64,000 bases of DNA from positions 1-64,000 of the forward strand of contig JAKQEA010000194.1 of assembly GCA_029558715.1 (NCBI GenBank), given 5' to 3'. The notes below the pieces were generated by a model, which searched no databases, had not been told where the DNA came from, and saw only the letters and a program-made list of their open reading frames with translations. The stretch comes from Bacteroidota bacterium. GTDB taxonomy: Bacteria > Bacteroidota > Bacteroidia > Chitinophagales > Chitinophagaceae. A program made the translations under genes and the position numbers. This document shows positions 41,131-56,132 of this stretch, one piece after another; the first letter of the stretch is position 1; the number at the start of each line of letters is the position of its first letter.

Positions 41131-41169
41131 ATAGTAAAAATTTACAAACCCAAACAAGTGTTAGCCGTG

Positions 41170-41177
41170 CAAATATA
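41170..41177 (-). promoter_or_regulatory. -7 promoter box TATATTTG of the acyl-CoA dehydrogenase gene
   Basis: Exact TAnnTTTG on the minus strand, upstream of both possible starts. No TTG at 17-23 nt. Confidence 0.4.
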
Positions 41178-41272
41178 AGGTCAAATCAGGCTGCCCGCTT
41201 ATTTGTATTTAAGATGATAATTGTCAGCTAGTACCCGATTTTTCTCATCGCATCCCTAACGGAATTTTGGCC

Positions 41273-41280
41273 TACCTTTG
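41273..41280 (+). promoter_or_regulatory. -7 promoter box TACCTTTG of ccmE
   Basis: Exact TAnnTTTG, 17 nt before the ATG at 41298. No clear TTG at the expected distance. Confidence 0.45.
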
Positions 41281-41297
41281 TACTGCAAAAAAAATTC

Positions 41298-41714
41298 ATG
41301 AAGAAAATACATATTATCCTGCTTGTTTTAATTGCCGGTTCTATAGGCGTCTTACTTACTTTCCTAAAAACAGCCAGCACTTATGATACGATTGATACAG
41401 CTATTGCCAAACCCGGTAAATTCGTTCACCTGATGGCTAAATTGGACAAATCCCAACCTATTGAGTACGATGCCGTTAACAACCCGAATTATTTAAGCTT
41501 CACTGCTATTGATACCCTTGGAAAATCTGTGAAAGTGGTTTATCATAATGCCAAGCCGGATAACCTTGAAATCAGCGAAAAACTAGTATTAAAAGGAAAG
41601 TATAATAACGGGCAATTTGAATGCAAAGACATACAAACCAAATGCCCATCCAAATACAAAGAAGAACAGGCAAAAGGTGGTACACACCCCGGGAATGTTC
41701 CTGCAAAGAAATAA
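41298..41714 (+). CDS. ccmE: Cytochrome c maturation heme chaperone CcmE, CxxxY type
   Basis: 138 aa. One N-terminal membrane anchor (IHIILLVLIAGSIGVLLTFL), then the OB-fold beta-barrel with ESKLVLKGKYNNGQFE-like strand near residue 100. The heme-binding site is C116-P-S-K-Y120 (CxxxY), the variant found in some delta-proteobacteria and archaea, instead of the HxxxY of E. coli CcmE. It transfers heme to cytochromes c through the CcmF/CcsA partner whose gene follows 61 nt downstream. The flexible Lys/Gly tail is usual. Confidence 0.9.
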   Translation: MKKIHIILLVLIAGSIGVLLTFLKTASTYDTIDTAIAKPGKFVHLMAKLDKSQPIEYDAVNNPNYLSFTAIDTLGKSVKVVYHNAKPDNLEISEKLVLKGKYNNGQFECKDIQTKCPSKYKEEQAKGGTHPGNVPAKK

Positions 41715-41774
41715 TGACCCTTCGCAAACTATCGCTGCAGCAATTTTTATCGGTAAATAATTCTAAACTACAGT

Positions 41775-44240
41775 ATGGACTATATCGGAGAAAATTTATT
41801 ACCCGGACAATTAGGACATTTTTTTATTGTGCTTTCCCTGGTAGCTTCTCTTCTTGCCACAGTTACTTATCTTCTTGCCGCTCAATCAAAGAACGAAACA
41901 GATTCGATTGCATGGAAAAAATTGGCCCGTTATGCCTTCATTGTTGAAGTGATCTCCGTTTTCTCCATTTTCGGTATTTTATTCTATATCATTCATAACC
42001 ATCTTTTCGAGTACCATTATGCATGGAAACATAGCAGCCGGTCATTAGAATTCAAATACCTGCTGGCCTGTTTCTGGGAAGGCCAGGAAGGAAGCTTTCT
42101 TCTTTGGAGTGCCTGTCATAGTATTCTGGGTGTTATTCTTATCAAACGCAGCGGCAAATGGGAGGCTCCGGTGATGACGATTGTAAGTTTTGCACAATTT
42201 GCATTGGCAACAATGGTTGCCGGTATCTACATTTTCGGGTGGAAAATGGGCTCTAACCCGTTTATTCTTTTAAGAGATTCTGGTGTCTTTGATAATGCCC
42301 CCGGCCTGCATATCAACTTTGATGTGAATCAACCTTTGCGTCCTGATTATATGCAATCAGTTAAAGATGGAAATGACCTGAATCCTTTATTGCAAAATTA
42401 CTGGATGGTGATCCACCCACCGGTTTTGTTCATGGGATTTGCTTCTACTATCGTTCCCTTTGCCTTTGCCATGGCAGGCTTATGGAAAAAACAATTTGGT
42501 GAATGGACCAAGCCTGCTTTACCGTGGGCATTGTTTTCTGCAGCTGTATTAGGAGTAGGTATTATGATGGGCGGCATGTGGGCCTATGAGTCACTTACAT
42601 TTGGCGGCTACTGGGCATGGGATCCCGTAGAGAACGCCTCATTGGTGCCATGGATGATATTGGTGTCCGGTATCCACACATTACTTATTTACAGGCATAG
42701 CGGTCATTCCCTGAGAGCTACCTACTTATTCTTCATCCTTGCTTTTGGTTTCATTCTTTATTCTACGTTCCTTACCCGTAGCGGAATACTGGGAGAATCA
42801 TCAGTACATGCTTTTACCGACCTAGGGATGAACTTTCAGTTGCTTACATTCCTGCTGATCTTTGTATTGCCATCGTTAGCATTCTTTTTTTACAGGTACA
42901 ACCAGATTCCTTCAGTTCAAAAAGAGGAAAATACTTCTTCCCGGGAATTCTGGATGTTTATCGGGGCATTGGTTTTCTTTCTTTCGGCCATTGTAATCAT
43001 TGGAAAAACATCTTTACCGGTTTTCAATAAAATATTCGGAACTAAAATTGCCCCTCCGGAGGATGCGGAATTCGCTTATAATAGTATCCAGGTTTATGTT
43101 GCCATAATAGTTGCGGCATTAACTGCGATCTCTCAATATTTAAAATACAAGGACACTCCGGGACAATACTTCTGGAAAAAGATATTAATACCAACTATTA
43201 TTACAGCTGTTCTTTCCTTGTTGTTCTTCCTTTTCGATGAGATCAATTACAATAAAAAAGGCCCCATCTTCCAGGGATCTATCTGGCTGGCAGTGGTTTG
43301 TAGCATTTATACCATAGTAGCGAATGCCGGTTATATCTGGCTTGGCTTAAAAGGCAGCCTGAAACTTTCGGGAGGTTCAATTGCTCATGTGGGATTTGGT
43401 ATGGTACTGCTGGGCATCCTGATCTCTTCATCCAATAAAGAAGTATTATCTAACAATATTGGCGGCATTCCGGCACCACTGGCTGAAGGAGAGGATCCCA
43501 GGGAAAACCTGACCCTGGTTAAAGACATGACAGCAAATATGGGCCGCTACTCGTTGACCTATGAAGGAGATTCAGCACACCCTAAAAAGCAGTTATGGTT
43601 CTATAAGGTCCGGTTCAGGAGTAATGATGGAAAAGAAGAATTTGTACTGATGCCAAATGCTTTTGTCAATTATAAAGGCAATGAAGGCCTGATGGCAAAC
43701 CCTGATGCCAAACATTACTGGGATCATGATGTATTTACCTATATCACTTCTATTCCTAATCCTGAAAATGCAAAGGATACCACTTCATTTAAACCATATA
43801 CCCGCAAACAGGGAGATTCCCTCTTTTATAGCAAAGGATTTATCATTGTACAGGATATAAAACAAAAGGACAGCGTTCCACAGGAACTGTTTGGAGCCCA
43901 GGGAATGTTGTATGAAGTACCACTGAAAATCTATTCTAAAAGCGGCTCCGTATTTTCAGTTACTTCCCGGCTGGCTAATGCTAAAGGAGAATGGTTTGCT
44001 ATACCGGATACCATCACCTCTGAAAGTCTTATTCTTCAGCTGCAAAAAGTAAATCCGGACAAAAGTATAGAGCTTGGTGTTAAGGAATCAAATGCAATAA
44101 TGAAATATGTAACGCTAAAAGCCTACCGTTTCCCCCTCATCAAACTACTTTGGTATGGTGTATGGATAACAGCGATAGGCATCATAATCAGCATGGTCAG
44201 GCGCATCCGGTTAAACCGGACTGGCAGGACCGTGTCCTAA
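41775..44240 (+). CDS. Cytochrome c maturation protein, CcmF/CcsA type
   Basis: 821 aa inner-membrane protein with about 13 to 15 helices. The WWD-motif YWAWDPVENASLVPW lies near residue 280, and the conserved heme-handling His residues are near HPPVLFMGF and HTLLIYRHSGHSL. It joins heme to apocytochromes c. It has the CcmF-like overall size and a C-terminal periplasmic part (from about residue 540: RYSLTYEGDSAHPKKQ). It follows ccmE with a 61-nt gap and ends 84 nt before the DUF4294 gene; ccmB, ccmC and ccmG are not in the window. Confidence 0.92.
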   Translation: MDYIGENLLPGQLGHFFIVLSLVASLLATVTYLLAAQSKNETDSIAWKKLARYAFIVEVISVFSIFGILFYIIHNHLFEYHYAWKHSSRSLEFKYLLACFWEGQEGSFLLWSACHSILGVILIKRSGKWEAPVMTIVSFAQFALATMVAGIYIFGWKMGSNPFILLRDSGVFDNAPGLHINFDVNQPLRPDYMQSVKDGNDLNPLLQNYWMVIHPPVLFMGFASTIVPFAFAMAGLWKKQFGEWTKPALPWALFSAAVLGVGIMMGGMWAYESLTFGGYWAWDPVENASLVPWMILVSGIHTLLIYRHSGHSLRATYLFFILAFGFILYSTFLTRSGILGESSVHAFTDLGMNFQLLTFLLIFVLPSLAFFFYRYNQIPSVQKEENTSSREFWMFIGALVFFLSAIVIIGKTSLPVFNKIFGTKIAPPEDAEFAYNSIQVYVAIIVAALTAISQYLKYKDTPGQYFWKKILIPTIITAVLSLLFFLFDEINYNKKGPIFQGSIWLAVVCSIYTIVANAGYIWLGLKGSLKLSGGSIAHVGFGMVLLGILISSSNKEVLSNNIGGIPAPLAEGEDPRENLTLVKDMTANMGRYSLTYEGDSAHPKKQLWFYKVRFRSNDGKEEFVLMPNAFVNYKGNEGLMANPDAKHYWDHDVFTYITSIPNPENAKDTTSFKPYTRKQGDSLFYSKGFIIVQDIKQKDSVPQELFGAQGMLYEVPLKIYSKSGSVFSVTSRLANAKGEWFAIPDTITSESLILQLQKVNPDKSIELGVKESNAIMKYVTLKAYRFPLIKLLWYGVWITAIGIIISMVRRIRLNRTGRTVS

Positions 44241-44323
44241 TTTTGGCATTTTTGAAACAGCATCCTTCGTAGTTTTACTGTCAGTATAAGAAATTCGAAT
44301 ACTGTTTTCTAATTTTATCCTCT

Positions 44324-45037
44324 GTGGATTACGCTAAAAAAAATATACCACTCCTTTTCCTGCTACTTGTCTTGGCAACAATGACAAGCAGCCGGGCCTT
44401 TAGCCAAAATCCATCTCCTGCATCCGAACCTATAGTTGACTCAACCGAATGGGCCCTCCAATACATGAAAGAACAACGCAAAAAATGGGGACCGAACGAT
44501 ACGATTATTCTTCCCGCCATCTGGTATCACCATGAAATAGTTAACTATAAGGAAATGGAAATGGCATGGGTTTCTAACCTGTCTCCGGAAAAACTGAAAA
44601 AATATATTGAAGAATGGACCAGGCTTAGAAATGCTGTTTATGTTACTTATCCGTATGCCCGGATCGCCGGTTCCACTATCAACGATATCAATTCGAATCT
44701 GGCCAGTGTAAGTTCGAAAAAAGAACGAAAGGCGTATATCAAATCAAGAGAAAAAGAACTGAAAAAGCAATTCAGCGATCCTCTTTCCAACCTGTCTGTA
44801 TACCAGGGAAAAATTCTGATGAAACTGATCAATCGTCAAACAGGAAATAACTGTTATGAAATTATCAAAGAATATAAAGGCGGATTCAATGCAAGGTTTT
44901 ACCAAACGGTTGCCTTTTTTGTAGGTGGCAACCTGAAACAGGATTGGGACCTTGTAAAGAATAAACTGGATAAGGATATTGAGAATATTGTAAAAGAAAT
45001 AGACGGCTCCTGGTACAACAATCCTTACAGGAAGTAA
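44324..45037 (+). CDS. DUF4294 family secreted protein
   Basis: 237 aa, starting at GTG. A signal-like hydrophobic segment (IPLLFLLLVLATMTSS) directs export. The body fits DUF4294, a Bacteroidota-specific family: DTIILPAIWYHHEIVNY, then RTRLRNAVYVTYPYARIAGSTIND-like segment, KILMKLINRQTGNNCYEIIKEYKGGFNARFYQTVAFF. Function of the family is unknown. It follows the CcmF/CcsA gene in the same direction. Confidence 0.85.
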   Translation: MDYAKKNIPLLFLLLVLATMTSSRAFSQNPSPASEPIVDSTEWALQYMKEQRKKWGPNDTIILPAIWYHHEIVNYKEMEMAWVSNLSPEKLKKYIEEWTRLRNAVYVTYPYARIAGSTINDINSNLASVSSKKERKAYIKSREKELKKQFSDPLSNLSVYQGKILMKLINRQTGNNCYEIIKEYKGGFNARFYQTVAFFVGGNLKQDWDLVKNKLDKDIENIVKEIDGSWYNNPYRK

Positions 45038-45096
45038 TTATTATGTAGTCAATTTCCTGGTACGTTCTGATCCTCCCTACTCTCACTGTAATAAAA

Positions 45097-45104
45097 TACA
45101 TTTG
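45097..45104 (+). promoter_or_regulatory. -7 promoter box TACATTTG of bshB1
   Basis: Exact TAnnTTTG. The transcript would start about 45108, which supports the start at 45132 over a longer reading from 45102. Confidence 0.5.
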
Positions 45105-45131
45105 CAATTATTTTTAATATTTCACACTAAT

Positions 45132-45869
45132 ATGAAAGCAGATATTCTTGCCATAGGCGTTCATCCTGATGATGTGGAACTGGGATGCTCGGGCACATTG
45201 ATCAACGAAACCAAAAAAGGGAAAAAAGTAGTAATCGTTGACCTGACACAAGGCGAACTCGGGACCAGAGGGACCATTGAGACCCGCTACCAGGAGGCTG
45301 CCAATGCAGCGATGATATTGGGTGTACATGCAAGAGAGAACCTGAAAATGAGAGATGGTTTTTTTAAGAATGATGAAGAACATCAATTAAAACTGATTGC
45401 AGCTATACGTAAGTACCAGCCTGATATAGTTATTGGAAATGTGTTACATGACAGGCATCCTGACCATGGAAGAGCCGGAAAACTCATTGCCGACAGCTGT
45501 TTCCTGGCAGGTCTTTCTAAGATAGAAACTAAAGATGAGAAACAGGAAAAGCAGGAAAGGTGGCGTCCCTCTTATGTATTACATTATATACAGGATTGGT
45601 ACCATGAGCCTGATCTGCTGATCGATATCAGTGATGTATTTGATCAGCGTATGAGAGCCATTGAGGCATATTCCACACAATTTCATACGGGTGCAGACAG
45701 CAATGAGGGCCCTCAAACCTATATTTCCACACCCGATTTTCTTGAAAGTGTTATCGCAAGAGCAAGAATGTTTGGCAAACGTATCGGTGTAAAGTATGCT
45801 GAAGGTTTTATCAGCGAGAAAAAAATTGGCATCCGGAACCTTGATGCACTGATACAAAATGAAACCTGA
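45132..45869 (+). CDS. bshB1: Bacillithiol biosynthesis deacetylase BshB1
   Basis: 245 aa, cytoplasmic LmbE/PIG-L family zinc deacetylase that removes the acetyl group from N-acetylglucosaminyl-malate. Zinc site HPDDVELGCSGT (AIGVHPDDVE) near residue 10, then LTQGELGTRGT, DIVIGNVLHDRHPDHGRAGKLI with the HPDH third ligand, and FHTGADSNEGPQTYIS, which is specific to BshB1. The long extension from 45102 is not used. A BstA-like protein lies at 55.6 kb, consistent with bacillithiol in this organism; bshA and bshC are not in the window. Confidence 0.95.
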   Translation: MKADILAIGVHPDDVELGCSGTLINETKKGKKVVIVDLTQGELGTRGTIETRYQEAANAAMILGVHARENLKMRDGFFKNDEEHQLKLIAAIRKYQPDIVIGNVLHDRHPDHGRAGKLIADSCFLAGLSKIETKDEKQEKQERWRPSYVLHYIQDWYHEPDLLIDISDVFDQRMRAIEAYSTQFHTGADSNEGPQTYISTPDFLESVIARARMFGKRIGVKYAEGFISEKKIGIRNLDALIQNET

Positions 45870-45918
45870 ATCAATGTTTGATTGAACTATCCCAATAAAA
45901 CGTTAAACAAACAGTCGT

Positions 45919-45930
45919 TGATTCATATCA
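45919..45930. promoter_or_regulatory. TGAT-N4-ATCA inverted repeat before the desaturase promoter
   Basis: TGATTCATATCA, part of the larger imperfect repeat CGTTGAT/ATCAAACG, 17 nt upstream of the TTG element of the desaturase promoter. A candidate regulator site; the factor is unknown. Confidence 0.35.
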
Positions 45931-45946
45931 AACGATTGACTTATTT

Positions 45947-45979
45947 TTGATACAATGTGGCAGTTTAAGACTACCTTTG
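45947..45979 (+). promoter_or_regulatory. Bacteroidota promoter of the desaturase gene
   Basis: TTG at 45947-45949, 22 nt, TACCTTTG at 45972-45979: both elements and the spacing fit. It falls inside the extended reading from 45947, supporting the start at 46004. Confidence 0.72.
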
Positions 45980-46003
45980 CCAATCAGTAATTACAGTATT
46001 AAA

Positions 46004-47071
46004 ATGACATTCCCAAAATTCTCCGGAACAGCACAATCCTTTCATGCTGAATTAAAGAAAAGAATCAGCGATTATTTTAAAGATGCCGGTAAAGCTCCTA
46101 CAGGGAACTTTCAATTGTATTTTAAAGCGATCTTCCTTGTTGTGGCTTACGTGGCAGTATATACTCACCTGATATTTTTTACACCTGCCACCTGGCTTGC
46201 TTTGACTGAATGTGTAGTATTAGGCGGATTAACTGCGGCTATTGGCTTTAATGTCATGCATGATGGCATGCACGGAAGTTTCAGCAAATACAAATGGGTA
46301 AACACCATGGCCGGCCTGTCTCTTAATTTTTTAGGTGCTAATAATTTCATGTGGAAGACCAAACATAATATCATTCACCACACCTATACAAATATTGAAG
46401 GGCTGGATGATGATATTGAGGCTAAACCACTACTCCGTCTTTGCGACACACAGAAATATTATAAAATACACCGTTTTCAACACTGGTACTTCTGGGCCGC
46501 CTATTCTTTACTTTATATCTGGTGGGTCTTTGTAACTGACTATAAGAAATATTTTTTGAAAAGAATCGGATCTGTCCCCTTAAAACCAATGTCTGCAGGT
46601 GACCATATTTCTTTCTGGGGTTTTAAACTATTACATGCATTTCTTTTTATCGCCTTGCCAATTTATGTAGTGGGCTTTACTCCCTGGCTGATTGGCTTTC
46701 TGATATTCGGTCTGTTTGCAGGGTTTGTATTGAGTATTGTATTCCAACTGGCACATACTGTGGAACATACACATTTCCCTCATGCAGATGTTGAAAGTAA
46801 CAAAATGGAAGATGAGTGGGCAATCCACCAATTGAAGACAACAGCCAATTTTGCTACCCGGAATAAAGTAATATCCTGGTTAGTCGGAGGGCTGAATTTC
46901 CAGGTAGAACACCATTTATTCCCTAAAGTATCGCATGTTCACTATCCTGCAATCAGCAAGATCATCAAAAAAGCATGTGAAGATTTTGGAGTTACCTATA
47001 TCGAGTATCCCAAAATGAGGTTGGCGCTGGCTTCCCATGTTTCTCATTTAAGAAACCTCAGCCGCAAATAA
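46004..47071 (+). CDS. Membrane fatty acid desaturase (acyl-lipid/acyl-CoA type)
   Basis: 355 aa integral membrane di-iron enzyme. The three His boxes are MHDGMHGSF, HNIIHHTYTNIEG and NFQVEHHLFP, the last with the QxxHH form of front-end and linoleoyl-CoA-type desaturases. Membrane spans near 50-70, 74-92, 165-185 and 210-245. No fused cytochrome b5 domain. It inserts a double bond into acyl chains; position unknown. The start MTFPKFSGTA is preceded by a consensus promoter, and the longer start at 45947 lies within it. A terminator follows. Confidence 0.95.
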   Translation: MTFPKFSGTAQSFHAELKKRISDYFKDAGKAPTGNFQLYFKAIFLVVAYVAVYTHLIFFTPATWLALTECVVLGGLTAAIGFNVMHDGMHGSFSKYKWVNTMAGLSLNFLGANNFMWKTKHNIIHHTYTNIEGLDDDIEAKPLLRLCDTQKYYKIHRFQHWYFWAAYSLLYIWWVFVTDYKKYFLKRIGSVPLKPMSAGDHISFWGFKLLHAFLFIALPIYVVGFTPWLIGFLIFGLFAGFVLSIVFQLAHTVEHTHFPHADVESNKMEDEWAIHQLKTTANFATRNKVISWLVGGLNFQVEHHLFPKVSHVHYPAISKIIKKACEDFGVTYIEYPKMRLALASHVSHLRNLSRK

Positions 47072-47089
47072 CCGCATTAAAAAAACTAG

Positions 47090-47120
47090 AAAAGGGAGTT
47101 GCAGGCAGCTCCCTTTTGTT
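47090..47120 (+). terminator. Terminator after the desaturase gene
   Basis: AAAGGGAG and CTCCCTTT form an 8-bp stem with a 10-nt loop, ending in TTTTGTTTG. Confidence 0.75.
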
Positions 47121-47187
47121 TGCCTTCAATTCTTTTTGCCACAAGACAAAACCCCTGTAACTTGCACCGTTTTTCAATTACAGATAT

Positions 47188-48231
47188 ATGGTTGACCTTT
47201 CCTCTTATGACCCTAACAGTGTAAGCAATCCCAATAATAATATTTTTGGATTACCCACTTCAGAAGATAATGCCAAACTGGTAATCATTCCTGTTCCATG
47301 GGAAGTAACTGTAAGTTACGGTGCAGGCACAGCAAGAGCACCCGAGTCAATTCTTAAGGCCAGTTACCAGGTAGACCTTTTTGATCCTGAAATGCCGGAT
47401 GCCTGGAAGCAAGGATTTTTTATGCGGCATACAGACAGGAAAATCCTGATGAAGAGTGACTATCTGAGAAAAGAAGCTGAACTCTATATAGATTATATTT
47501 CAAAAGGAGAAGATGTTAATGCCAACCAGTTCATGTGCAAAACGCTGAGAGAAGTAAATGAAGGTGGTGTTTTCCTGACAGAGTGGATGCATGAACAAAC
47601 AAAAGCATTACTGGAAAAAGACAAACTGGTGGCTGTATTAGGCGGCGATCATAGTGCGCCATTAGGTTACATGAAAGCCGTTGGTGAAAAATACGGAGAC
47701 TTTGGAATTCTTCAGATCGATGCTCATTGTGATCTTCGGGATACTTACGAGGGCTTTAAACATTCTCATGCCAGCATCATGTTTAATGCATTGAAAGAAA
47801 TAACACAGTTACAAAGACTGGTACAGGTGGGGATAAGAGATTATAGCCAGATAGAATGGGATTATATTAAAAACAGCAATTATAAGGTCATCGCTTATTT
47901 TGACAGGGAGATAAAGAAAAGACAATTTGAAGGGGAATCATGGAAAACGCTGGCAGAGGAAATAGTAAGCAAACTTCCGCAACAGGTATATATCAGTTTT
48001 GATATTGATGGACTGGACAGGAAACTTTGCCCTCATACAGGTACTCCGGTTCCCGGAGGATTCGAGTTGGAAGAAGTGTTTTTCATTTTCAGAAAAGTGC
48101 TGGAAAGTGGCCGTAAAATCGTTGGCTTTGACCTCAGTGAAGTTGGAGTGAGTGATTCTGACTGGAATGCCAATGTAGGAGCAAGAGTACTTTTTAAATT
48201 GTGCAATTTATTGGTGACAAGCAATAGCTGA
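47188..48231 (+). CDS. Ureohydrolase (arginase/agmatinase/formimidoylglutamase family)
   Basis: 347 aa binuclear manganese hydrolase. All Mn ligands are present: GGDHSAPLGY near residue 154, DAHCDLR near 181, and SFDIDGLD near 272. Substrate-specific loops are not diagnostic, and the N-terminal ~110 residues are longer than in arginase; members in Bacteroidota are called formimidoylglutamase or agmatinase-like without proof. It heads a four-gene run: the next start lies 1 nt after its stop, then a 4-nt overlap and a 6-nt gap, so it is very likely co-expressed with the radical SAM enzyme and exporter. Confidence 0.92.
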   Translation: MVDLSSYDPNSVSNPNNNIFGLPTSEDNAKLVIIPVPWEVTVSYGAGTARAPESILKASYQVDLFDPEMPDAWKQGFFMRHTDRKILMKSDYLRKEAELYIDYISKGEDVNANQFMCKTLREVNEGGVFLTEWMHEQTKALLEKDKLVAVLGGDHSAPLGYMKAVGEKYGDFGILQIDAHCDLRDTYEGFKHSHASIMFNALKEITQLQRLVQVGIRDYSQIEWDYIKNSNYKVIAYFDREIKKRQFEGESWKTLAEEIVSKLPQQVYISFDIDGLDRKLCPHTGTPVPGGFELEEVFFIFRKVLESGRKIVGFDLSEVGVSDSDWNANVGARVLFKLCNLLVTSNS

Positions 48232-48232
48232 A

Positions 48233-48781
48233 ATGCCCAGATTCCGATTTCTCCTAAAGAATGAAAAATTAAAGCAATACCATCAGATTGCTTTTTATAT
48301 TATTTTTATCAACCTGCTGGCTTTTGTATATATAGCAATAGCAACTACTCAAAAAGATATACGGATTAGTTCAATTATTACAGCTGTAATACTTACAGGT
48401 GCACTTGCTATCGATTATTTCCTTGAAAAATTAAAAAATAATGAAGACACTCCGTATAAACTTTTAGCCGAGTATATTATCGCACTGGCCTGGTTTAAAG
48501 CAGGTTTCTGGTGGCTGGCATTAATTTTTTTCATTCTGGGAATGTTGTATCTCGGCGCAAAAAGAAAACTTCTGGTCAGCATTTTTACTGATAAAATACT
48601 TTATCCATCTCTTCCTCAAAAGCATATATCATGGCCTGAATTAAATGCAATTATTTTAAAAGACGGACTATTGACCATTGACTTCAAAAACAACAAGCTC
48701 ATTCAGCAAGCCATAGATGAAAACAGTCCTGTAAATGAGCAGGAATTTAACGAGTTTTGCAGGCAGCAATTAAATAAATGA
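48233..48781 (+). CDS. Small membrane protein of unknown function in the ureohydrolase-radical SAM operon
   Basis: 182 aa, not recognised. About four hydrophobic helices in the first ~115 residues (IAFYIIFINLLAFVYIAI, ISSIITAVILTGALAI, then one near 88 and one near 102) and a soluble C-terminal ~65 residues (SWPELNAIILKDGLLTIDFKNNK). It begins 1 nt after the ureohydrolase stop, and its stop codon overlaps the next start codon (ATGA), so translational coupling with the radical SAM gene is likely. Its role may be to anchor or assist the enzyme, but this is inference. Confidence 0.82.
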   Translation: MPRFRFLLKNEKLKQYHQIAFYIIFINLLAFVYIAIATTQKDIRISSIITAVILTGALAIDYFLEKLKNNEDTPYKLLAEYIIALAWFKAGFWWLALIFFILGMLYLGAKRKLLVSIFTDKILYPSLPQKHISWPELNAIILKDGLLTIDFKNNKLIQQAIDENSPVNEQEFNEFCRQQLNK

Positions 48782-50079
48782 GTTTATCACAATCCCCATA
48801 CATACTTTACTCCGACGGTAAAGGAAATATTTTTGAAGACACTTCATTATATGTAACCGGCCGCACAGGCTGGGACGCAGTACCGGTACCCGAAGATGAA
48901 TGGATTGAATTACCCGATGGGGGTTCATTGTATGAATTACCCGGAAGACGAGGCATTGGTATCGATGTTGAGACCGGTGATATGCGGCTTTGTGAAAAAG
49001 GCTGGGCTGTTGCCGCATTTATTCCTCCGGCACATACTGGTTTCTATTTGGCTGCCTATGAAACAGCATCCGATGCTCCTATCCTTCCCTTATTTTGTTA
49101 TACTGCAGCAGGCTGGTTTAATGATAAATTCTATGTACCTGCCATCCGAATTGAACCGGATATCAGGCAGGAATGTGCCGGATATGATGCAAAAAAAGTA
49201 GAAGCCGGTGCCAAAGAATTACTCAAACATTATCCGCAAAACAGGTTAGTGGCACACCTGATGAATAATTGTGCATTGACTTACAGTTGCCCCGCAGCCA
49301 GAAACTTTGCATTGGGCAGATGGGAATGCCCCGTACCTGCATCACCGGCTTGTAATGCCAATTGTGTAGGGTGCATCTCACTGCAGCCCGATGAGGAGCC
49401 TATCGTTTCTACACAAGACAGATTGACCTTTAAACCTACCCCGGAAGAGATTGTTGAGTTCACTGTTCCTCACCTGGAAACAGCACCCTACCCTATCATC
49501 AGTTTCGGGCAAGGTTGCGAAGGTGAACCTTTGCTGATGTGGGAAACCATTCGTGATGCGATTATTGAGATCAGGAAACACACAAAAAAAGGGAGTATCA
49601 ATATTAATACAAATGGATCCAGGCCGGATGCCGTGAAAGTCCTTTGCGAAGCCGGACTTGATTCTATCCGTGTAAGTACCAACTCAGCCAGGAGAGAAAT
49701 TTACACTCCTTATTATCGTCCTAACAATTACGACTTTGACGATATTGTTGAAAGCCTGAAAGTCGTTAACTCATTTGGTGGCTGGACATCCATCAACTAT
49801 TTCGTTTTCCCGGGAATGACCGATTCAGTTGCAGAATATGAAGCATTGAGAAAGCTGATAAAGGAAACCGGGTTAAAGATGATCCAGTGGCGCAATTTCA
49901 ACATTGATCCCGACTGGTATCTTGGCAAGATTGGCGTGACAGATACAGGTGAATGCATAGGAGTCAAACAACTACAGGAACTGATCCGGGAAGAATTTCC
50001 CGATCTGAAATACGGCTACTTTAACCCTCCCATGGAACGCATCAGAGGAAAGTTTGAACTGGATTTTGCACACTACTAA
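48778..50079 (+). CDS. Radical SAM enzyme of unknown substrate
   Basis: 433 aa. The 4Fe-4S/SAM cluster site is C192-N-A-N-C196-V-G-C199 (CxxxCxxC), followed by the GQGCEGEPLLMW segment (a GGE-like strand), INTNGSRPDAVKVLC and SIRVSTNSARREIYTPYYRP. The N-terminal ~185 residues form a separate domain (DGGSLYELPGRRGIGIDVE), with no recognised fold. There is no SPASM or extra Fe-S cysteine cluster at the C-terminus. It overlaps the membrane protein gene by 4 nt and lies 6 nt before an exporter gene, suggesting a modified small product. No substrate is known. Confidence 0.9.
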   Translation: MSLSQSPYILYSDGKGNIFEDTSLYVTGRTGWDAVPVPEDEWIELPDGGSLYELPGRRGIGIDVETGDMRLCEKGWAVAAFIPPAHTGFYLAAYETASDAPILPLFCYTAAGWFNDKFYVPAIRIEPDIRQECAGYDAKKVEAGAKELLKHYPQNRLVAHLMNNCALTYSCPAARNFALGRWECPVPASPACNANCVGCISLQPDEEPIVSTQDRLTFKPTPEEIVEFTVPHLETAPYPIISFGQGCEGEPLLMWETIRDAIIEIRKHTKKGSININTNGSRPDAVKVLCEAGLDSIRVSTNSARREIYTPYYRPNNYDFDDIVESLKVVNSFGGWTSINYFVFPGMTDSVAEYEALRKLIKETGLKMIQWRNFNIDPDWYLGKIGVTDTGECIGVKQLQELIREEFPDLKYGYFNPPMERIRGKFELDFAHY

Positions 50080-50085
50080 GAGTTA

Positions 50086-50994
50086 ATGAATCAGCCGATC
50101 AAAAAAAATATTTACATAGGTATCAGCCTTGCCGTACTGGCAACATTTATCTGGTCGTGGAATTTTATCATCGCAAAAGGGATATACAAAGAAATCCCTC
50201 CGGTGAGTCTTGCCTTTTTACGCTGGCTGACTGCCACAATCATCATTTTCCCGTTTGCTTATCAATCTTTCAAGAAAGAATGGTCCTCAGTACGGAAATC
50301 CTGGCTTTACTTTTTGATAGCGGCTGCTACCGGTGTAGCTATGTTCAACACATTTGTGTATATCGGTGCACAATATACTACTGCCATAAACCTGGCCCTG
50401 ATAGGAACTACTTCTTCTCCAATTCTTTCTGTAATCTTTGCCCGGATATTTCTGAAAGAAAAAATCAGTGGCGCAAAGGTGATTGGAATAACCACTTGTA
50501 TAGCCGGTATTTTGTTTCTGTTGTCAAAAGGGAATTTTCAAAACCTGTTACACCTGAAATTTACCCGGGGTGATACCTGGGTTTTGCTGGCAGGTCTTTC
50601 TTTCGCTGTTTACAATACAATGGTTAAGAAAAAGCCAGTTACTGTTTCCCCGGTCAACTTTCTTTTTATTGTTTTTGCGGTAGGAACAATCCTTCTTTTT
50701 CCTTTCTACCTGGAAGAAGCAGCGAATACAGCTCCTGTTTCGTATACTGCAAATAACATTCTTATCATCTTGTATCTTGGTTTAGGAGCTTCTGTTATCT
50801 GTTTCTGGATCTGGAATATTGCTATCCGCAATCTTGGCGCAGGAAGGGCTGCATTGTTTGGTAATCTTATACCTGTTTTCAGCACTTTGGAAGCCGTATT
50901 GGTGTTGGGCGAAAAAATAACCTGGGTACATGTAGTGAGTTTTACCCTTGTGCTGGCTGGCTTATTTGCAGCCAATATCCAAAAAAGAAGTTAA
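50086..50994 (+). CDS. EamA/DMT superfamily transporter
   Basis: 302 aa with about ten membrane helices in two EamA repeats (roughly 10-140 and 155-298). Features: WSWNFIIAKGIYKEIPPVSLAFLRWL near residues 23-48, INLALIGTTSSPILSVIFARIFLKEKISG at the end of the first repeat, and the matching FGNLIPVFSTLEAVLVLGEKITWVH in the second. It probably exports a small metabolite or amino acid-like compound, perhaps the product of the preceding enzymes. Last gene of the operon. Confidence 0.93.
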   Translation: MNQPIKKNIYIGISLAVLATFIWSWNFIIAKGIYKEIPPVSLAFLRWLTATIIIFPFAYQSFKKEWSSVRKSWLYFLIAAATGVAMFNTFVYIGAQYTTAINLALIGTTSSPILSVIFARIFLKEKISGAKVIGITTCIAGILFLLSKGNFQNLLHLKFTRGDTWVLLAGLSFAVYNTMVKKKPVTVSPVNFLFIVFAVGTILLFPFYLEEAANTAPVSYTANNILIILYLGLGASVICFWIWNIAIRNLGAGRAALFGNLIPVFSTLEAVLVLGEKITWVHVVSFTLVLAGLFAANIQKRS

Positions 50995-50997
50995 TCA

Positions 50998-52482
50998 TTA
51001 TTTACAGGCTCCTCTTAATGTAAGCTCTAATGCAGCTTCGAATTCTTTTTCTGCAGCTGGTGAGTCAAACGTTATCCAGCAGTCAAGGGTAAGTTGCCTA
51101 ACAGAATGCCAACCTAAATCATCGGTTCCATGCCTAACATACATACCACCGGTTGATTGCCATTTGCCATTTACACATTTGTATTCAATATCATAATCCA
51201 CCCATTTGCGGATGACATGTATGGAATAAGAGAACATTTTTGAAGTTGAAAATGCTTTGGCCATTTTCTCTCCAATATCAGTTGCCTTATCCAGTTCCAG
51301 TTCTTCCAGTAATTCTTTTATCTTTTCATACACATCATTCCCCTCTTTACTGTGCCCGCAGGGAAGCACTTTGCGATCATCAATCTCACAGGCAAATGTC
51401 TTGTGCCATCTCCATCTGACAGTTGCACCCTCCGGGTCACATGGCTGATCTCCGATGTATCCGTATGAACCCGGGTAACCACTTTCATTCTTTAAATCAC
51501 TTAAATCAATCTGGTTTGCTGTACTGCTATTATCCGGCAGATCAAGATTCACATTCACTGAAAAAGTGCCTGATTTTATACTTTGTATATCAAACTTCCG
51601 TGTAAATATTCCTGAGCCTTCAGTTGCAGGTGATAAAGGAATAACAATAGTATTTGCCGGCATCATTGTAACGGTTGCAGGCGAAATATTATTCAAAGAC
51701 AGAATTGCAGTATCCGGTAAACCTTGCAGACCCGAAATCTTTATATCAATATAAGTCCTTTCCCCTTTTGATAAATTCAGTTTGCCGGCAGAAACATCCA
51801 TGCTGACACCTGAAATTCTTTGATTGCATGCCTGACTGTTCTTTTCATTATTATCTGTTATGTTTAATGTTTGTAAACCAACAGCGTCAGCCGGGTATTT
51901 AAAAATACATTGACGTGGTGATTCTGCAAGCACTTCAGCAGGTGTACTTCCTAATGAACATTTTGTATTGGAAGCGTCCCCATCAAAAGGACCAGTAATA
52001 TTAACCGGGGTACCCACCAGCACATGAGATGGGTGGCTGCAGTTTTGTAATGATGCGGAAATAGTTTTGTCCAAATTATTTAGCGTAAAAGAAAGTTGGC
52101 CAACTTTAGCACCACTACCGTTTATCAGTTCTATCGGTGAAACCTGCTTTCCACCGGAATGTAAAAGCCATTTCATCAACCCGGGTTTTGAAGGAACAGA
52201 AGTTCTGTTCCCATCAATGCTTACAGTGTACTTAATAAGTTCTGAAAGGTTTTTTTCAACCTGTTTTGCATTTTTACCAATTGGTTCAGCTAACACTGTT
52301 CCTGAAATAACTTCTCCCGGCCTTATATCATCAGGCAGGTAAACTTTTATAGTACCGGCCGGAGTATTGAAAACTGCGGTTGTTAGCCCTTTTTGGGTTG
52401 AGATAGTTTGAGCCCAGATTATTGATGCAGGTACAAGCAGGAATAAAGAGAGCACAGAAGAGAAAAATATTGACTTTCTCAT
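50998..52482 (-). CDS. Large secreted protein of unknown function
   Basis: 494 aa from the start MRKSIFFSSVLSLFLLVPASIIWAQ, a clear signal peptide; an upstream in-frame ATG at 52572 would add 30 residues and bury the signal, so it is not used. The first ~150 residues are beta-rich (AVFNTPAGTIKVYLPDDIRPGEVISGTVLAE), with beta-sandwich-like repeats in the middle; the last 150 contain many Cys and Trp (PCDPEGATVRWRWHKTFACEID). No catalytic motif is recognised. It converges with the DMT gene 4 nt away. Confidence 0.72.
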   Translation of the reverse strand: MRKSIFFSSVLSLFLLVPASIIWAQTISTQKGLTTAVFNTPAGTIKVYLPDDIRPGEVISGTVLAEPIGKNAKQVEKNLSELIKYTVSIDGNRTSVPSKPGLMKWLLHSGGKQVSPIELINGSGAKVGQLSFTLNNLDKTISASLQNCSHPSHVLVGTPVNITGPFDGDASNTKCSLGSTPAEVLAESPRQCIFKYPADAVGLQTLNITDNNEKNSQACNQRISGVSMDVSAGKLNLSKGERTYIDIKISGLQGLPDTAILSLNNISPATVTMMPANTIVIPLSPATEGSGIFTRKFDIQSIKSGTFSVNVNLDLPDNSSTANQIDLSDLKNESGYPGSYGYIGDQPCDPEGATVRWRWHKTFACEIDDRKVLPCGHSKEGNDVYEKIKELLEELELDKATDIGEKMAKAFSTSKMFSYSIHVIRKWVDYDIEYKCVNGKWQSTGGMYVRHGTDDLGWHSVRQLTLDCWITFDSPAAEKEFEAALELTLRGACK

Positions 52483-52706
52483 AGCAGTGCTTTTACTAAA
52501 TTTAATACAGTTTGCCGAATTTGAAGAAAACATTAAAAACACGGCAAAACCCAGCAGATTGAGTTGAAACAAGCCTGGACTGTTCTTCCCAAAATCTTAA
52601 CATTTTATAAATCAACATTCATGCAAGTTGCACAGCGTTTGCATCGTTAATAACACCTGTGTATAAACAGGGCTGTCTTTCATTGATAATCAAAGCTTAA
52701 ATTTGT

Positions 52707-53588
52707 ATGAACAACGCCTACGCTATGTCTGCATCCCTTGAAGCCCAATACCGTTCAAAAGCCACTATGATAACGGCTGGTTTTGCCGGTGTGGCTATAT
52801 TGCTGATGTTCCTGCTGAAATGGAAGCTTCCCGTTTTTGAAAAGGTAGTAGAAATGCCCGGCATTGAAGTGGAGCTGAACCTGCCTCCTGACCCTCCTAT
52901 ACCTCTTGAAGAAGGCGGTGGCGGCGGTGGTAATCCCGTTCAGGCAGCAGGAAATCCCGGTATAGCACAGGCTGCCCCAATGCCTCCGGGAACGAATGAA
53001 GATTCCAAAAACATTGAAGAAGACAATGAAAGTTCCAGCCCGGCAATCACCAAACCAGTTGTAACGAAACCAAAGGCTACAGCCATCACAAATACTTCTA
53101 TAACTAAAGCTGAGCCTAAGGAGATAAAAACACCAGCTCCTCCAAGGCCCAAAGCTGTAATGGACGGGAAAAATATTACAGGAACTCAAAAGGGCGGTAA
53201 TAATGCTGATAACTACGACCAGGCTGGTGGCAGGGGTAATGGCAATGGTGTTGGGACCGGTAATGGTGTAGGTGGAGGCAATGGCAACGGTGTTGGCGGA
53301 GGAAACGGTTCCGGAACAGGGGGTGGCAGTGGCCCAAGAGTAACAAGAGGCGACAGAAAGATCGTACGCAGCTATTCTTTTGAAGGAGACCTGGATAAAG
53401 CTACCATTTATGCCAACGTAAACGTATCACCTGACGGCATCGGAAAATTCGTAAGTATCGCCAAGGGATCCTCCAATAGCAGCAATGCGTATAAAGAAGC
53501 CATCATCCGTTACCTGCAGAACATTAAGTTTGATAAAGCTGATCATGAATCCATGATCACTGTTCAGTTTAATTTCAGGGTTAACTAA
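52707..53588 (+). CDS. TonB-like protein with glycine/asparagine-rich linker
   Basis: 293 aa. N-terminal membrane helix (about residues 25-40, AGFAGVAILLMFLLKW), then PPDPPIPLEEGGGGG, an Ala/Pro/Lys-rich linker (TKPVVTKPKATAIT), a Gly/Asn repeat of GNGNGVGGGN type (about residues 172-212), and a C-terminal ~80-residue domain (IYANVNVSPDGIGKFVSIAKG, ending TVQFNFRVN) with the fold pattern of TonB/TolA tails. It may energise an outer membrane system; no receptor is near. A -7 box TAAATTTG ends 1 nt before the first ATG, so the real start could be the second ATG at 52725. Confidence 0.8.
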   Translation: MNNAYAMSASLEAQYRSKATMITAGFAGVAILLMFLLKWKLPVFEKVVEMPGIEVELNLPPDPPIPLEEGGGGGGNPVQAAGNPGIAQAAPMPPGTNEDSKNIEEDNESSSPAITKPVVTKPKATAITNTSITKAEPKEIKTPAPPRPKAVMDGKNITGTQKGGNNADNYDQAGGRGNGNGVGTGNGVGGGNGNGVGGGNGSGTGGGSGPRVTRGDRKIVRSYSFEGDLDKATIYANVNVSPDGIGKFVSIAKGSSNSSNAYKEAIIRYLQNIKFDKADHESMITVQFNFRVN

Positions 53589-53606
53589 CACAAGATTATT
53601 GAAGAG

Positions 53607-53645
53607 AAAAAACCATTTCGCCCAAAACGAAATGGTTTTTTATTT
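53607..53645 (+). terminator. Terminator between the TonB-like gene and folC
   Basis: A 14-bp perfect stem (AAAAAACCATTTCG / CGAAATGGTTTTTT) with a 7-nt loop, ending in T6. The -7 box of folC follows directly. Confidence 0.9.
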
Positions 53646-53656
53646 AATGCAACCAC

Positions 53657-53664
53657 TATTTTTG
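53657..53664 (+). promoter_or_regulatory. -7 promoter box TATTTTTG at folC
   Basis: TAnnTTTG match 5 nt before the ATG at 53670, after the upstream terminator. Predicts a near-leaderless transcript. Confidence 0.5.
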
Positions 53665-53669
53665 TCCCG

Positions 53670-55046
53670 ATGAATTACGAGCAGACCATTGATTATTTAT
53701 TTACCCGGCTACCCATGTTTAGTCGTATTGGTGCTGCTGCATTCAAAAAAGATCTTACCAACACCATCGAACTTTGCCTAACGCTGGGCAACCCTCATCA
53801 GCAATTCAAATCGGTTCATATCGCCGGAACCAATGGTAAAGGTTCAGTCAGTCATATACTGGCCGCTATTTTACAAACAGCTGGTTACAAAACAGGTCTT
53901 TACACTTCCCCGCACCTGAAAGATTTCCGTGAGAGAATAAAAGTGGACGGCGAAATGATACCCGAACAATACGTCGTTGATTTTACTGAGAGGATACAAC
54001 CACTTATTGAAAAAATGGAGCCCAGTTTTTTTGAAATTACTGTAGCAATGGCATTCGATTATTTTGCACAGCAAAAGGTTGATATCGCTATTATTGAAAC
54101 CGGCCTCGGTGGAAGATTGGACAGTACCAATGTCATTACACCTGAACTTTCTGTGATCACCAATATTGGTTGGGATCATATGAATATGCTCGGAGACACA
54201 TTGGAAAAAATCGCTTTTGAAAAAGCTGGAATAATAAAACCCGGAATTCCGGTAGTAATCGGGGAAGTGTTACCTGAAACTGAACCAGTGTTTGAAAAAG
54301 TAGCAATAGAAAAAAATGCCCAGCTGCATATTTCGTCTCACAAAAGACAGGTTACAGACTGGTATTGGAAGAAGCATCAACTGATCGTGGAGGTAGCAGA
54401 AAAGCAATATACAGATCATAAGACTTATCATCTTGACCTGCCTGGAATATACCAGGCAAAAAACCTGCTGACAGTTCTTGAAGCCTGCTCTCAACTACAA
54501 CAAAAAGGCTTTAGGATCACTGATGAAATAATTCATACGGCTCTTGCACAATCGAAAAAGCTGACAGGCCTGCATGGCCGGTGGGAGGTCATTCATAATT
54601 CTCCTCTCGTAGTATTGGATGTGGCGCATAATATAGATGGCATAAAACAACTGGTGCAGCAAATAGAACTAACAGAACATCAGCAATTGCATATCATCAT
54701 TGGTATGGTAAAAGACAAGGAAACAGAAAAGGTACTTGAGCTTCTGCCGAAGAATGCAACTTATTATTTCACCAGGGCACAAATACCAAGAGCACTGCCC
54801 GAAGAAGAATTGGCTGCAAAAGCAACCCGGTACGGGTTAAAAGGAAAAACATTTTCAAATGTAAATTTCTCTCTTTACAGCGCTTCTCATAAAGCAACGA
54901 AAAAAGATATGATCATTGTTTGCGGAAGTATTTTCCTGGTGGGTGAAGTAAGCCTGAACAGCGTAAAGGAAATATGGGGGAAGGAGGAATATTCTACAGG
55001 TGTATTTGATGCAATTGAAATGGCAGCATGGACATTCTTTCGTTAA
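53670..55046 (+). CDS. folC: Bifunctional folylpolyglutamate synthase / dihydrofolate synthase
   Basis: 458 aa Mur-ligase-fold enzyme that adds glutamates to folate. ATP-binding loop AGTNGKGSVSHIL (about residue 52), then YTSPHLKDFRERIKVDG, TVAMAFDYFAQQKVDIAIIETGLGGRLDSTNVI and ITNIGWDHMNMLGDTLEKIAFEKAGIIKPGIP. The C-terminal domain carries GLHGRWEVI and VLDVAHNIDGIK. Length and motif order are normal. Its 3' end overlaps the convergent NUDIX gene by 4 nt. Confidence 0.97.
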   Translation: MNYEQTIDYLFTRLPMFSRIGAAAFKKDLTNTIELCLTLGNPHQQFKSVHIAGTNGKGSVSHILAAILQTAGYKTGLYTSPHLKDFRERIKVDGEMIPEQYVVDFTERIQPLIEKMEPSFFEITVAMAFDYFAQQKVDIAIIETGLGGRLDSTNVITPELSVITNIGWDHMNMLGDTLEKIAFEKAGIIKPGIPVVIGEVLPETEPVFEKVAIEKNAQLHISSHKRQVTDWYWKKHQLIVEVAEKQYTDHKTYHLDLPGIYQAKNLLTVLEACSQLQQKGFRITDEIIHTALAQSKKLTGLHGRWEVIHNSPLVVLDVAHNIDGIKQLVQQIELTEHQQLHIIIGMVKDKETEKVLELLPKNATYYFTRAQIPRALPEEELAAKATRYGLKGKTFSNVNFSLYSASHKATKKDMIIVCGSIFLVGEVSLNSVKEIWGKEEYSTGVFDAIEMAAWTFFR

Positions 55047-55591
55047 TAGTGTAATTCACCCAGCTTCTCCAGTGCATACAAAATACAGGAAACATGCATA
55101 CCCTGGATGATCTTATTCTCCCTGAGTAACTGCTTTAACTCATCTATGCTCATCTCCAGTACTTCTATCTCTTCATTCTCATCCAGTTTTTGCTCCGCTA
55201 CTTTCTTTCCTCCCTTTGCCAGGAACATGTGTAACAAATTGGAATTAGTTGAAGGATTAGGTGATATTTTCCCGAGATAATCAAAAGATGAAAAGGTATA
55301 GCCTGTTTCTTCCAGTAATTCCCTGGCAATAGCATACTCAACATTGGTATCTGTATCATCAACACAACCACCGGGAATTTCAATACAGGTTTCACCCAGT
55401 GCATGCCGGTATTGCTTTACCATTATAATTTTTCCCTCCTCGGTAACAGGTAAGGCCCCTACCCAGGTAGAGAATTCATAGACATAATAAGGATCGACGA
55501 TCTTTCCGCCGGGAGTTTCACATTTATCACGGCGTACCTTAAACCACTTATCATTAAACAGGTATTCTGAAGAGAGGGTTTTCCATTTCAT
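55043..55591 (-). CDS. NUDIX hydrolase, ADP-ribose pyrophosphatase-like
   Basis: 182 aa. Nudix box (GX5EX7REUXEEXGU) in GGCVDDTDTNVEYAIARELLEETGY, with the catalytic glutamates in RELLEETG. The loop TPGGKIVDPYYVYEF and the KQYRHALGETCIEIPGG segment point to an ADP-ribose/NDP-sugar pyrophosphatase rather than mutT. First two residues of the family's substrate loop cannot assign the exact compound. Starts 1 nt downstream of the BstA-like gene's stop, so it is last in a minus-strand operon. Confidence 0.93.
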   Translation of the reverse strand: MKWKTLSSEYLFNDKWFKVRRDKCETPGGKIVDPYYVYEFSTWVGALPVTEEGKIIMVKQYRHALGETCIEIPGGCVDDTDTNVEYAIARELLEETGYTFSSFDYLGKISPNPSTNSNLLHMFLAKGGKKVAEQKLDENEEIEVLEMSIDELKQLLRENKIIQGMHVSCILYALEKLGELHY

Positions 55592-55592
55592 T

Positions 55593-56132
55593 TTACCATC
55601 CTTTTCTTTCTCTCAAAGAAGTAATATGCGCTACATGATGTTTGCCATGCCAGGCATACATGCCCAGCAGGAACCATAACCGCATCGTCTTCTTATGCTC
55701 CGGGTGAAAAACAGTTTTGTTATTCCAATCATCATCGGTAACATACTTTAATGTTTCATACAAACGGGCATGCACTGCATGTAAAATTGTGACAGATATA
55801 TTAACCGGTAATTTCTGAACATCATGCAGCTCAGCCCATTTATTTTCATCATAAGGCTTTATGGTGGGATTTTCTTCAGTTAACCCAAGCTTGAAGCGTA
55901 TATAGGCATTCATATGGCTGTCAGCCACATGGTGCACTAACTTATGCACCGTCCATCCACCTTCCCTGTAAGCTGTTTGTAACTGAGCTTCATCCAGGTT
56001 TAGAATTGCATTCTCAATTTGTAATGGCAGGAATTTTATATCTGCCAGCCATTCTATCTTTTGTTCGATAGAAAATGGTTTTGGCTCATACTGCCCGATC
56101 GGGTAACGGGGGTCAACTGCAGCAACAGGCAT
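55593..56132 (-). CDS. DinB-fold bacillithiol S-transferase-like protein (BstA/YfiT family)
   Basis: 179 aa four-helix bundle metal-binding protein. The start region DPRYPIGQYEPKPFS is a family signature; metal His in KLVHHVADSHMNAYIRFKL and in WHGKHHVAHITSLRERKGW at the C-terminus. Members conjugate bacillithiol to electrophiles such as antibiotics or alkylators. The bshB1 gene 10 kb away shows the organism makes bacillithiol. Substrate unknown. It sits in a minus-strand run with FKBP and NUDIX genes. Confidence 0.9.
   Translation of the reverse strand: MPVAAVDPRYPIGQYEPKPFSIEQKIEWLADIKFLPLQIENAILNLDEAQLQTAYREGGWTVHKLVHHVADSHMNAYIRFKLGLTEENPTIKPYDENKWAELHDVQKLPVNISVTILHAVHARLYETLKYVTDDDWNNKTVFHPEHKKTMRLWFLLGMYAWHGKHHVAHITSLRERKGW

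Follow-up and report, generated by a model that had tools for sequence, protein, structure and literature searches.

An orphan radical SAM enzyme encoded in a conserved set with an agmatinase-type ureohydrolase and a membrane protein in Chitinophagales

Four genes lie close together on the forward strand of a 64,000-nucleotide (nt) stretch of DNA from a Bacteroidota bacterium of the family Chitinophagaceae, order Chitinophagales (assembly GCA_029558715.1, contig JAKQEA010000194.1); we refer to the whole stretch as the window. They encode a ureohydrolase (here named C), a small membrane protein (Mem), a radical S-adenosylmethionine enzyme (rSAM), and a DMT-family exporter. An initial annotation had proposed that the four are expressed together and form a pathway in which a guanidino or formimino compound is hydrolyzed, modified by radical chemistry, and exported. 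Which of these genes belong together, and what might an rSAM that fits no named family do beside a ureohydrolase? Comparison with relatives showed that the conserved unit is three genes (C, mem, and rSAM), not four. For the locus as a whole, we regard an agmatinase operon with an added polyamine-linked rSAM step and a membrane partner as a reading with an even chance of being right.

Conservation of a three-gene unit

The four open reading frames (ORFs) of the operon are where they were first placed (Table 1). Genes 1 and 2 are separated by 1 nt, genes 2 and 3 overlap by 4 nt (ATGA), and genes 3 and 4 are separated by 6 nt, again as first described. We compared gene order in 80 named loci, which are the best, and so the closest, 80 of at least 566 confirmed relatives, and in 39 whole-genome loci, 8 of them from other families. 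Among the 77 named loci with enough upstream sequence, C was adjacent to rSAM in 61, mem in 69, and both in 60; among the whole-genome loci, the corresponding numbers were 27, 30, and 25. The exporter was adjacent in 25 of the 77 named loci with enough downstream sequence and in 10 of 38 whole-genome loci.

To lower the weight of close relatives, we thinned the 111 loci of the window's family (an input that left out the eight order-level loci, L031 to L038, and also L050, which has only an rSAM remnant) at 85% rSAM identity, which gave 40 loci. Adjacency was retained in 30 of 39 thinned loci for C and mem, in 35 of 40 for mem and rSAM, and in 28 of 39 for C and rSAM. The flanking pairs were retained in 4/39 (desaturase and C), 7/40 (bshB and desaturase), 10/40 (rSAM and tonB), and 16/38 (tonB and folC). 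Since the pairs within the trio outlast the flanking pairs, the trio is kept beyond background gene order. The exporter adjoined rSAM in 10 of the 40 thinned loci. It has PF00892 in two stretches, corresponding to two EamA repeats, and hence belongs to the DMT/EamA family as annotated, but its adjacency is at the level of the flanking genes. We therefore rejected it as a part of the system; the exporter is an occasional passenger. Thus, the proposed grouping held for genes 1 to 3, which are adjacent in most, though not all, of the relatives that have them, and failed for gene 4; a serial scheme of hydrolysis, modification, and export is not supported.

At the level of genomes, a near-full-length rSAM ortholog was found in 71 of 117 relatives (one further genome, G003, has only remnants), and a strong C ortholog (>150 bits) was found in 89 of 117, in some cases as a contig-edge fragment. 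Both were present in 63 genomes, and in 50 of these, C directly preceded rSAM in the same orientation: 30 from the window's genus, 18 from other genera of its family, and 2 from another family. Chitinophaga filiformis (L149) is among the species that carry the trio. In the eight order-level loci (L031 to L038), C was adjacent in two and mem and the exporter were adjacent in none. In family f3, C and rSAM were adjacent without mem in four of the eight loci read (L034, L037, L241, and L243); of the remaining four, L240 sits on a short contig. Because these f3 loci pair C with rSAM in the absence of mem, they suggest that the link between C and rSAM predates the entry of the membrane gene. We infer that C, Mem, and rSAM probably function as one unit.

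Two further arrangements were seen at these loci. In G003 (L050), rSAM is reduced to C-terminal remnants, and the mem match and flanking genes are kept, apparently reflecting a recent loss. In L034, L037, L243, and L246, from two families, genes resembling ccmE and ccmF (named by resemblance; ccmE-like only in L246) lie divergently upstream of C in what appears to be an old arrangement.

Table 1. Features of the operon and its upstream interval (window coordinates)
Feature	Position	Strand	Basis or remark
Ureohydrolase C, agmatinase-type, 347 aa	47188-48231	+	ORF; PF00491, E 7.1e-52
Small membrane protein (Mem), 182 aa	48233-48781	+	ORF
Radical SAM enzyme (rSAM), 433 aa, outside named families	48778-50079	+	PF04055, E 1.5e-15
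rSAM N-terminal domain, residues 1-182	48778-49323	+	Largely beta up to about residue 124; helical after that
CxxxCxxC radical SAM cluster motif (C192, C196, C199)	49351-49374	+	Cys in 120/120 aligned
Extra invariant Cys C165 and C171	49270-49290	+	120/120 aligned; C247 at 49516-49518
Optional last gene, transporter of the EamA/DMT family, 302 aa	50086-50994	+	PF00892, E 7.1e-47
Terminator-like hairpin, interval between desaturase gene and gene 1	47090-47117	+	12-pair stem, T-rich tail

An agmatinase-type ureohydrolase with polyamine-type neighbors

As the initial annotation had noted, C carries the motifs of a Mn-dependent ureohydrolase (GGDHS, DAHCD, and DIDGLD in the window protein), whose metal ligands we take to be H155, D178, H180, D182, D272, and D274. 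Its best NCBIfam model was agmatinase, TIGR01230 (165.2 bits; cut-off, 174.3); scores with the arginase model (90.5 bits; cut-off, 227.6) and the hutG model (71.8 bits; cut-off, 229.15) were far lower. TIGR01230 was also the best model for all 10 C-type proteins scanned, including that of the window, with scores of 149.4 to 178.3 bits. The hutG scores, listed for 8 of these 10, were 63 to 75 bits. All 116 distinct C-type ORFs have a loop histidine (H194 in the window protein), recognized by a strict pattern in 105 and by inspection of the printed motif in 11.

Formimidoylglutamase (HutG; TIGR01227) belongs to the same ureohydrolase superfamily, and the comparison with it separates the two halves of the originally proposed substrate. 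Four relatives have hutU-hutI clusters with a separate HutG that reads DAHxDLR...SGT in the alignment where C has DAHCDLRDTYEGFKHSHAS (C-type ending, ...SHA); in one of these clusters (L212), HutG and HutI are separated by a gene on the opposite strand. The one HutG scanned of the four (L214) scored 264.4 bits, above the hutG cut-off. A SpeA-linked agmatinase from another relative (L168), which scored 226.9 bits with the agmatinase model, above its cut-off, shares the His-type loop of C. Furthermore, C is present in two near-complete genomes (G055 and G063) that lack a HutU match and a HutI above the cut-off. On the basis of loop type, hutG score, and presence in these genomes, we rejected the histidine breakdown reading of C; the formimino option falls with it, and a guanidino compound is the most likely substrate. 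This points to a likely annotation trap, in that C-type ureohydrolases should not be named formimidoylglutamases.

The gene neighbors of C in some relatives are of the polyamine type. In 10 of the 80 named loci, C is preceded on its own strand by genes of the AguB (N-carbamoylputrescine amidase) and AguA (agmatine deiminase) types, with the AguA-type gene 63 to 512 nt before C (L225 is from the same genome as L084, which is that of Terrimonas ferruginea, and L061 is from the same genome as L104). In L189, C is preceded by SpeA-like and homospermidine-synthase-like genes, and in L201 (4322-5611), it is immediately preceded by an ORF for a 429-aa fusion of SpeD (adenosylmethionine decarboxylase) and SpeE (spermidine synthase), both halves of which scored above the cut-offs. 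The names AguA, AguB, SpeA, and deoxyhypusine synthase (DHS) are those of the best NCBIfam matches. In the genome of the window itself, polyamine genes are not adjacent to C: AguB-AguA-type genes are on contig C80, a SpeA-like gene is on contig C9, and a DHS-family gene is on contig C233.

These contexts resemble the speA-speB and aguA-aguB operons, in which agmatine-consuming enzymes are likewise encoded together; the rSAM enzyme and the membrane protein are the additional elements here. With SpeB of Escherichia coli, C shares the arginase-family Mn motifs, the loop histidine, the best-matching model, and a polyamine gene context. It differs in being only 27% identical to that protein, in a score 9 bits below the cut-off for the window protein, and, in the window's family, in being joined to rSAM and mem. 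Taking the agmatinase-type sequence and the polyamine-type neighbors together, we consider that C is very probably an agmatinase, which would convert agmatine to putrescine.

We also counted alternative routes in the 100 genomes that are at least 90% complete. C and an AguA-type gene were both present in 38, C alone in 41, an AguA-type gene alone in 16, and neither in 5, where "AguA-type" was set by hand from E-values and contig-edge fragments were counted. Three of the five genomes with neither carry another SpeA-linked agmatinase type, so that 19 of the 21 genomes lacking C have one or the other. None of the 117 genomes passed the speA cut-off. Fisher tests of co-occurrence are confounded by phylogeny, and we gave them little weight.

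Other ureohydrolase genes and C variants were also noted. The window genome has a second ureohydrolase on contig C119, with hutG as its sole listed NCBIfam match (74.9 bits, below the cut-off), and contig C39 carries a further gene, of the arginase type (210.0 bits; arginase cut-off, 227.6). In each of three genomes (G015, G052, and G089), the C-matching stretch has one in-frame stop, which suggests decay.

The orphan radical SAM enzyme and its probable membrane partner

The interest of the operon lies in the orphan rSAM enzyme. It is a member of the radical SAM superfamily by its PF04055 match (58.2 bits; gathering score, 29.5) and by CxxxCxxC, which lies at residues 192 to 199 as first reported; it reads CEGEP where GGEP is usual. 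No NCBIfam model gave the window protein more than 27.8 bits, which is below all of the listed cut-offs (129.7 to 400), and 18 other members gave weak E-values (best, 7.4e-9). With the neighborhood of MoaA, NrdG2, and TIGR04100, it shares the core, CxxxCxxC, and weak profile matches over the core; it differs in these low scores and in having its own N-terminal domain. A sequence search of the PDB with the window protein gave no matches at an E-value of ≤1, and a search with the rSAM profile gave 10 matches, all of them weak (best E, 0.00018) and almost all to the core.

The N-terminal domain, described at the outset as about 185 residues that could not be placed, remained so: the window sequence had no Pfam matches, and a fold search of the PDB with a predicted model of this domain alone (predicted local distance difference test score [pLDDT], 84.2; predicted template modeling score [pTM], 0.65) gave no matches at an E-value of ≤0.001. 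In other members, it matched two Pfam families weakly (best E, 0.01), and we did not credit these matches. An AlphaFold2 model of the whole protein had a pLDDT of 85.5 and a pTM of 0.85, with a pLDDT of <50 at residues 194 to 212, which include two of the three cysteines of the radical SAM motif. Radical SAM barrels were its top Foldseek matches, and a few barrels of other kinds followed with weaker E-values. HydE gave the best E-value for the barrel, and lipoyl synthase gave the best target-normalized template modeling (TM) score (0.58) among the 50 matches listed. In those matches, however, model-normalized TM scores did not exceed 0.40; identity to lipoyl synthase was about 10%, and the N-terminal domain alone had no fold match.

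Six cysteines (C192, C196, C199, C165, C171, and C247) are invariant across all 120 rSAM sequences aligned, a set that includes near-duplicates. The initial annotation had stated that there is no auxiliary cluster. This is not established: the invariance of C165, C171, and C247 makes a second Fe-S cluster possible, with these three residues as its possible ligands. The C165-C171 spacing ahead of the radical SAM motif is, we presume, reminiscent of lipoyl synthase. The only cysteines after C247 are C290 (117/120) and C393 (73/120), neither of which is invariant, and we rejected the SPASM/twitch class for lack of an invariant cysteine in this region. We also considered maturation of a ribosomally synthesized and posttranslationally modified peptide: there is no SPASM domain, and no conserved small precursor-peptide ORF was noticed beside rSAM in the neighborhoods read, which were not subjected to a dedicated search for short precursors. 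Archaeal-type hypusine/agmatidine chemistry was likewise considered; a literature search on hypusine gave no link, and agmatidine was not searched.

At an E-value of ≤1e-20, rSAM was found in 163 of 396 genomes of the order, 125 of the 133 from the window's family and 38, patchily distributed, from families f3, f16, f18, and f21 (a split counted by hand from the table; G443, in the latter group, matched more weakly). In a sample of 296 genomes from the phylum, all 11 full-length matches were in the window's order, and three weak partial matches were outside it. The carriers include nine genomes that are <2 Mb and at least 90% complete. Plasmid records contained no rSAM relatives, and none of 12 candidates in viral contigs was confirmed. 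Thus, rSAM is close to being a core gene of a large environmental family of bacteria, and yet the enzyme fits no named family.

The membrane protein has hydrophobic segments at residues 19 to 37, 45 to 63, and 90 to 108, followed by a soluble C-terminal part. One copy was found in the window genome. It evolves fast (mean column identity of 32% in 17 aligned members). No Pfam family scored above its cut-off with the window protein (best, DctM; 14.2 versus 23.8 bits; E, 0.02), and matches of the 17 members were weak and scattered (best E, 0.0017). Mem adjoins rSAM without an adjacent C in 9 of 77 named loci, three of which have C farther off in the same locus, and in 5 of 39 whole-genome loci; of these five, only the loci from G010 and G025 are in genomes that lack any C ortholog. 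Because it stays by rSAM where C is not adjacent, Mem is more likely a partner of rSAM than of the agmatinase. Two tandem genes of the membrane protein type lie between C and rSAM in L062 and L063 (the second gene in L063 by resemblance).

Weighing a polyamine-linked role for the unit

In the reading that we prefer, C would hydrolyze agmatine to putrescine and urea and would be coproduced with the orphan rSAM and with a membrane protein specific to the lineage. The rSAM would carry out a 5'-deoxyadenosyl-radical step, either on putrescine itself or on a polyamine derived from putrescine; alternatively, its target may be a macromolecule that carries or needs putrescine or a polyamine. Mem might dock or regulate the pair of C and rSAM. 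That the substrate of rSAM is polyamine linked is our leading guess, to which we give somewhat less than an even chance. A more specific version is offered tentatively and is rather doubtful: this rSAM, seen so far in Chitinophagales only, would catalyze a radical reaction not yet described, the target of which would be a polyamine or else an RNA or protein with a putrescine-derived group, and the supply enzyme and a membrane partner would be encoded alongside. The association with genes for the conversion of agmatine to putrescine points, for the first time, to a specific class of substrates that can be tested for rSAM. To our knowledge, radical chemistry on polyamines or polyamine-linked molecules occurs in no described polyamine pathway, so that such a step, if true, would be a reaction type new to these pathways. 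The literature searched, which covered few subscription-journal papers and no bioRxiv preprints, yielded no paper recognized as describing the C-mem-rSAM set and no link of an rSAM enzyme and a membrane protein to polyamine operons.

A number of observations weigh against this reading. Nine of the ten C-type proteins scanned, all except that of L192, fall below the agmatinase cut-off, and an otherwise full-length C ortholog (L043; 9957-11018) has DAHSN for DAHxD, so that one metal-ligand position is changed. The polyamine-type neighbors also score below their cut-offs (AguA, 280.0 versus 381.8 bits; AguB, 322.5 versus 410.25; SpeA-like, 149.0 versus 624.1; DHS-like, 115.3 versus 450). In one genome (G081; L183, 1460-3768), a C ortholog, 50% identical, lies directly after hutI, the single directly hut-linked context seen for the family. 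C and rSAM were adjacent in none of 5 f16 loci and none of 11 f18 loci read. Eight of the 71 genomes with rSAM lack C, and hence rSAM does not need C itself; AguA-type matches were found in all eight, in one case only as a 41-residue fragment. Some putrescine route was present in 98 of the 100 good genomes, so that co-occurrence of rSAM with such routes is uninformative. The chemistry suggested for rSAM comes from its gene context. Lastly, rSAM adjoins genes for translation or RNA functions in 8 of the 26 loci read away from C.

The last of these contexts belongs to a close rival, which ranks just behind the polyamine-linked step: rSAM may act on the translation machinery by modifying rRNA, tRNA, or a ribosomal protein, with the agmatinase cotranscribed through joint regulation of polyamines and translation rather than through a shared pathway. 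On its own, this is a serious possibility that we nonetheless consider unlikely. Away from C, rSAM is next to infC in L032 (and L244, by resemblance), rbfA in L035, and ftsY in L066. In family f18, a gene for an RluA-type pseudouridine synthase (PF00849) follows rSAM in 4 of 11 loci read, directly in L235, L236, and L238 and after one short gene in L229. Strong conservation of rSAM (136 of 433 positions kept in at least 99% of the 120 sequences) and the lack of a noticed precursor-peptide gene are also in keeping with a target in translation. However, the eight loci may represent only about four events, translation genes are common neighbors in any genome, and these are raw counts; moreover, many contexts away from C, such as L033, L036, L038, L231, L232, L234, and L237, have no such neighbor. 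The two readings need not conflict: both would accommodate a polyamine-derived group attached to RNA or protein.

That the trio merely reflects conserved gene order among close relatives, without a shared function, is improbable. Within the genus, conservation extends in part to a larger block that includes bshB, the desaturase gene, tonB, and folC, and C is not next to rSAM in 13 of the 63 genomes that have both; these findings fit such an account. Nevertheless, adjacency in the thinned loci is lost sooner for the flanking pairs than within the trio, and another family, whose C is only about 50% identical, also has loci with C next to rSAM.

It is very unlikely that C is instead the formimidoylglutamase of histidine breakdown, placed beside rSAM incidentally: the hutI-linked ortholog in G081, the presence of HutI above the cut-off in 104 and HutU in 98 of the 117 relatives, and the occurrence of both on two contigs of the window genome with no second strong HutG found there are outweighed by the agmatinase-like His loop of C in place of the HutG loop, its low hutG scores, its presence in the two genomes without a HutU match or a HutI above the cut-off, the different ureohydrolase type used by the hut clusters of four relatives, and the existence in the window genome of the C119 ureohydrolase, whose only listed match, below the cut-off, is hutG.

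We also examined the surroundings of the operon. The scan that detected the hairpin upstream of gene 1 found four terminator-like hairpins, compared with a mean of 4.1 in shuffled sequence, and hence not above chance. An Rfam scan of positions 40000 to 56000 gave no matches at the gathering level, and we accordingly dropped a lead from one report (PMC10853860) on a spermidine riboswitch. The gene after the exporter is convergent, and its ORF ends 3 nt past gene 4. Upstream of the operon, at positions 45132 to 45869, lies a gene for a BshB1-type bacillithiol deacetylase (TIGR04001, 299.3 bits; cut-off, 182.5).

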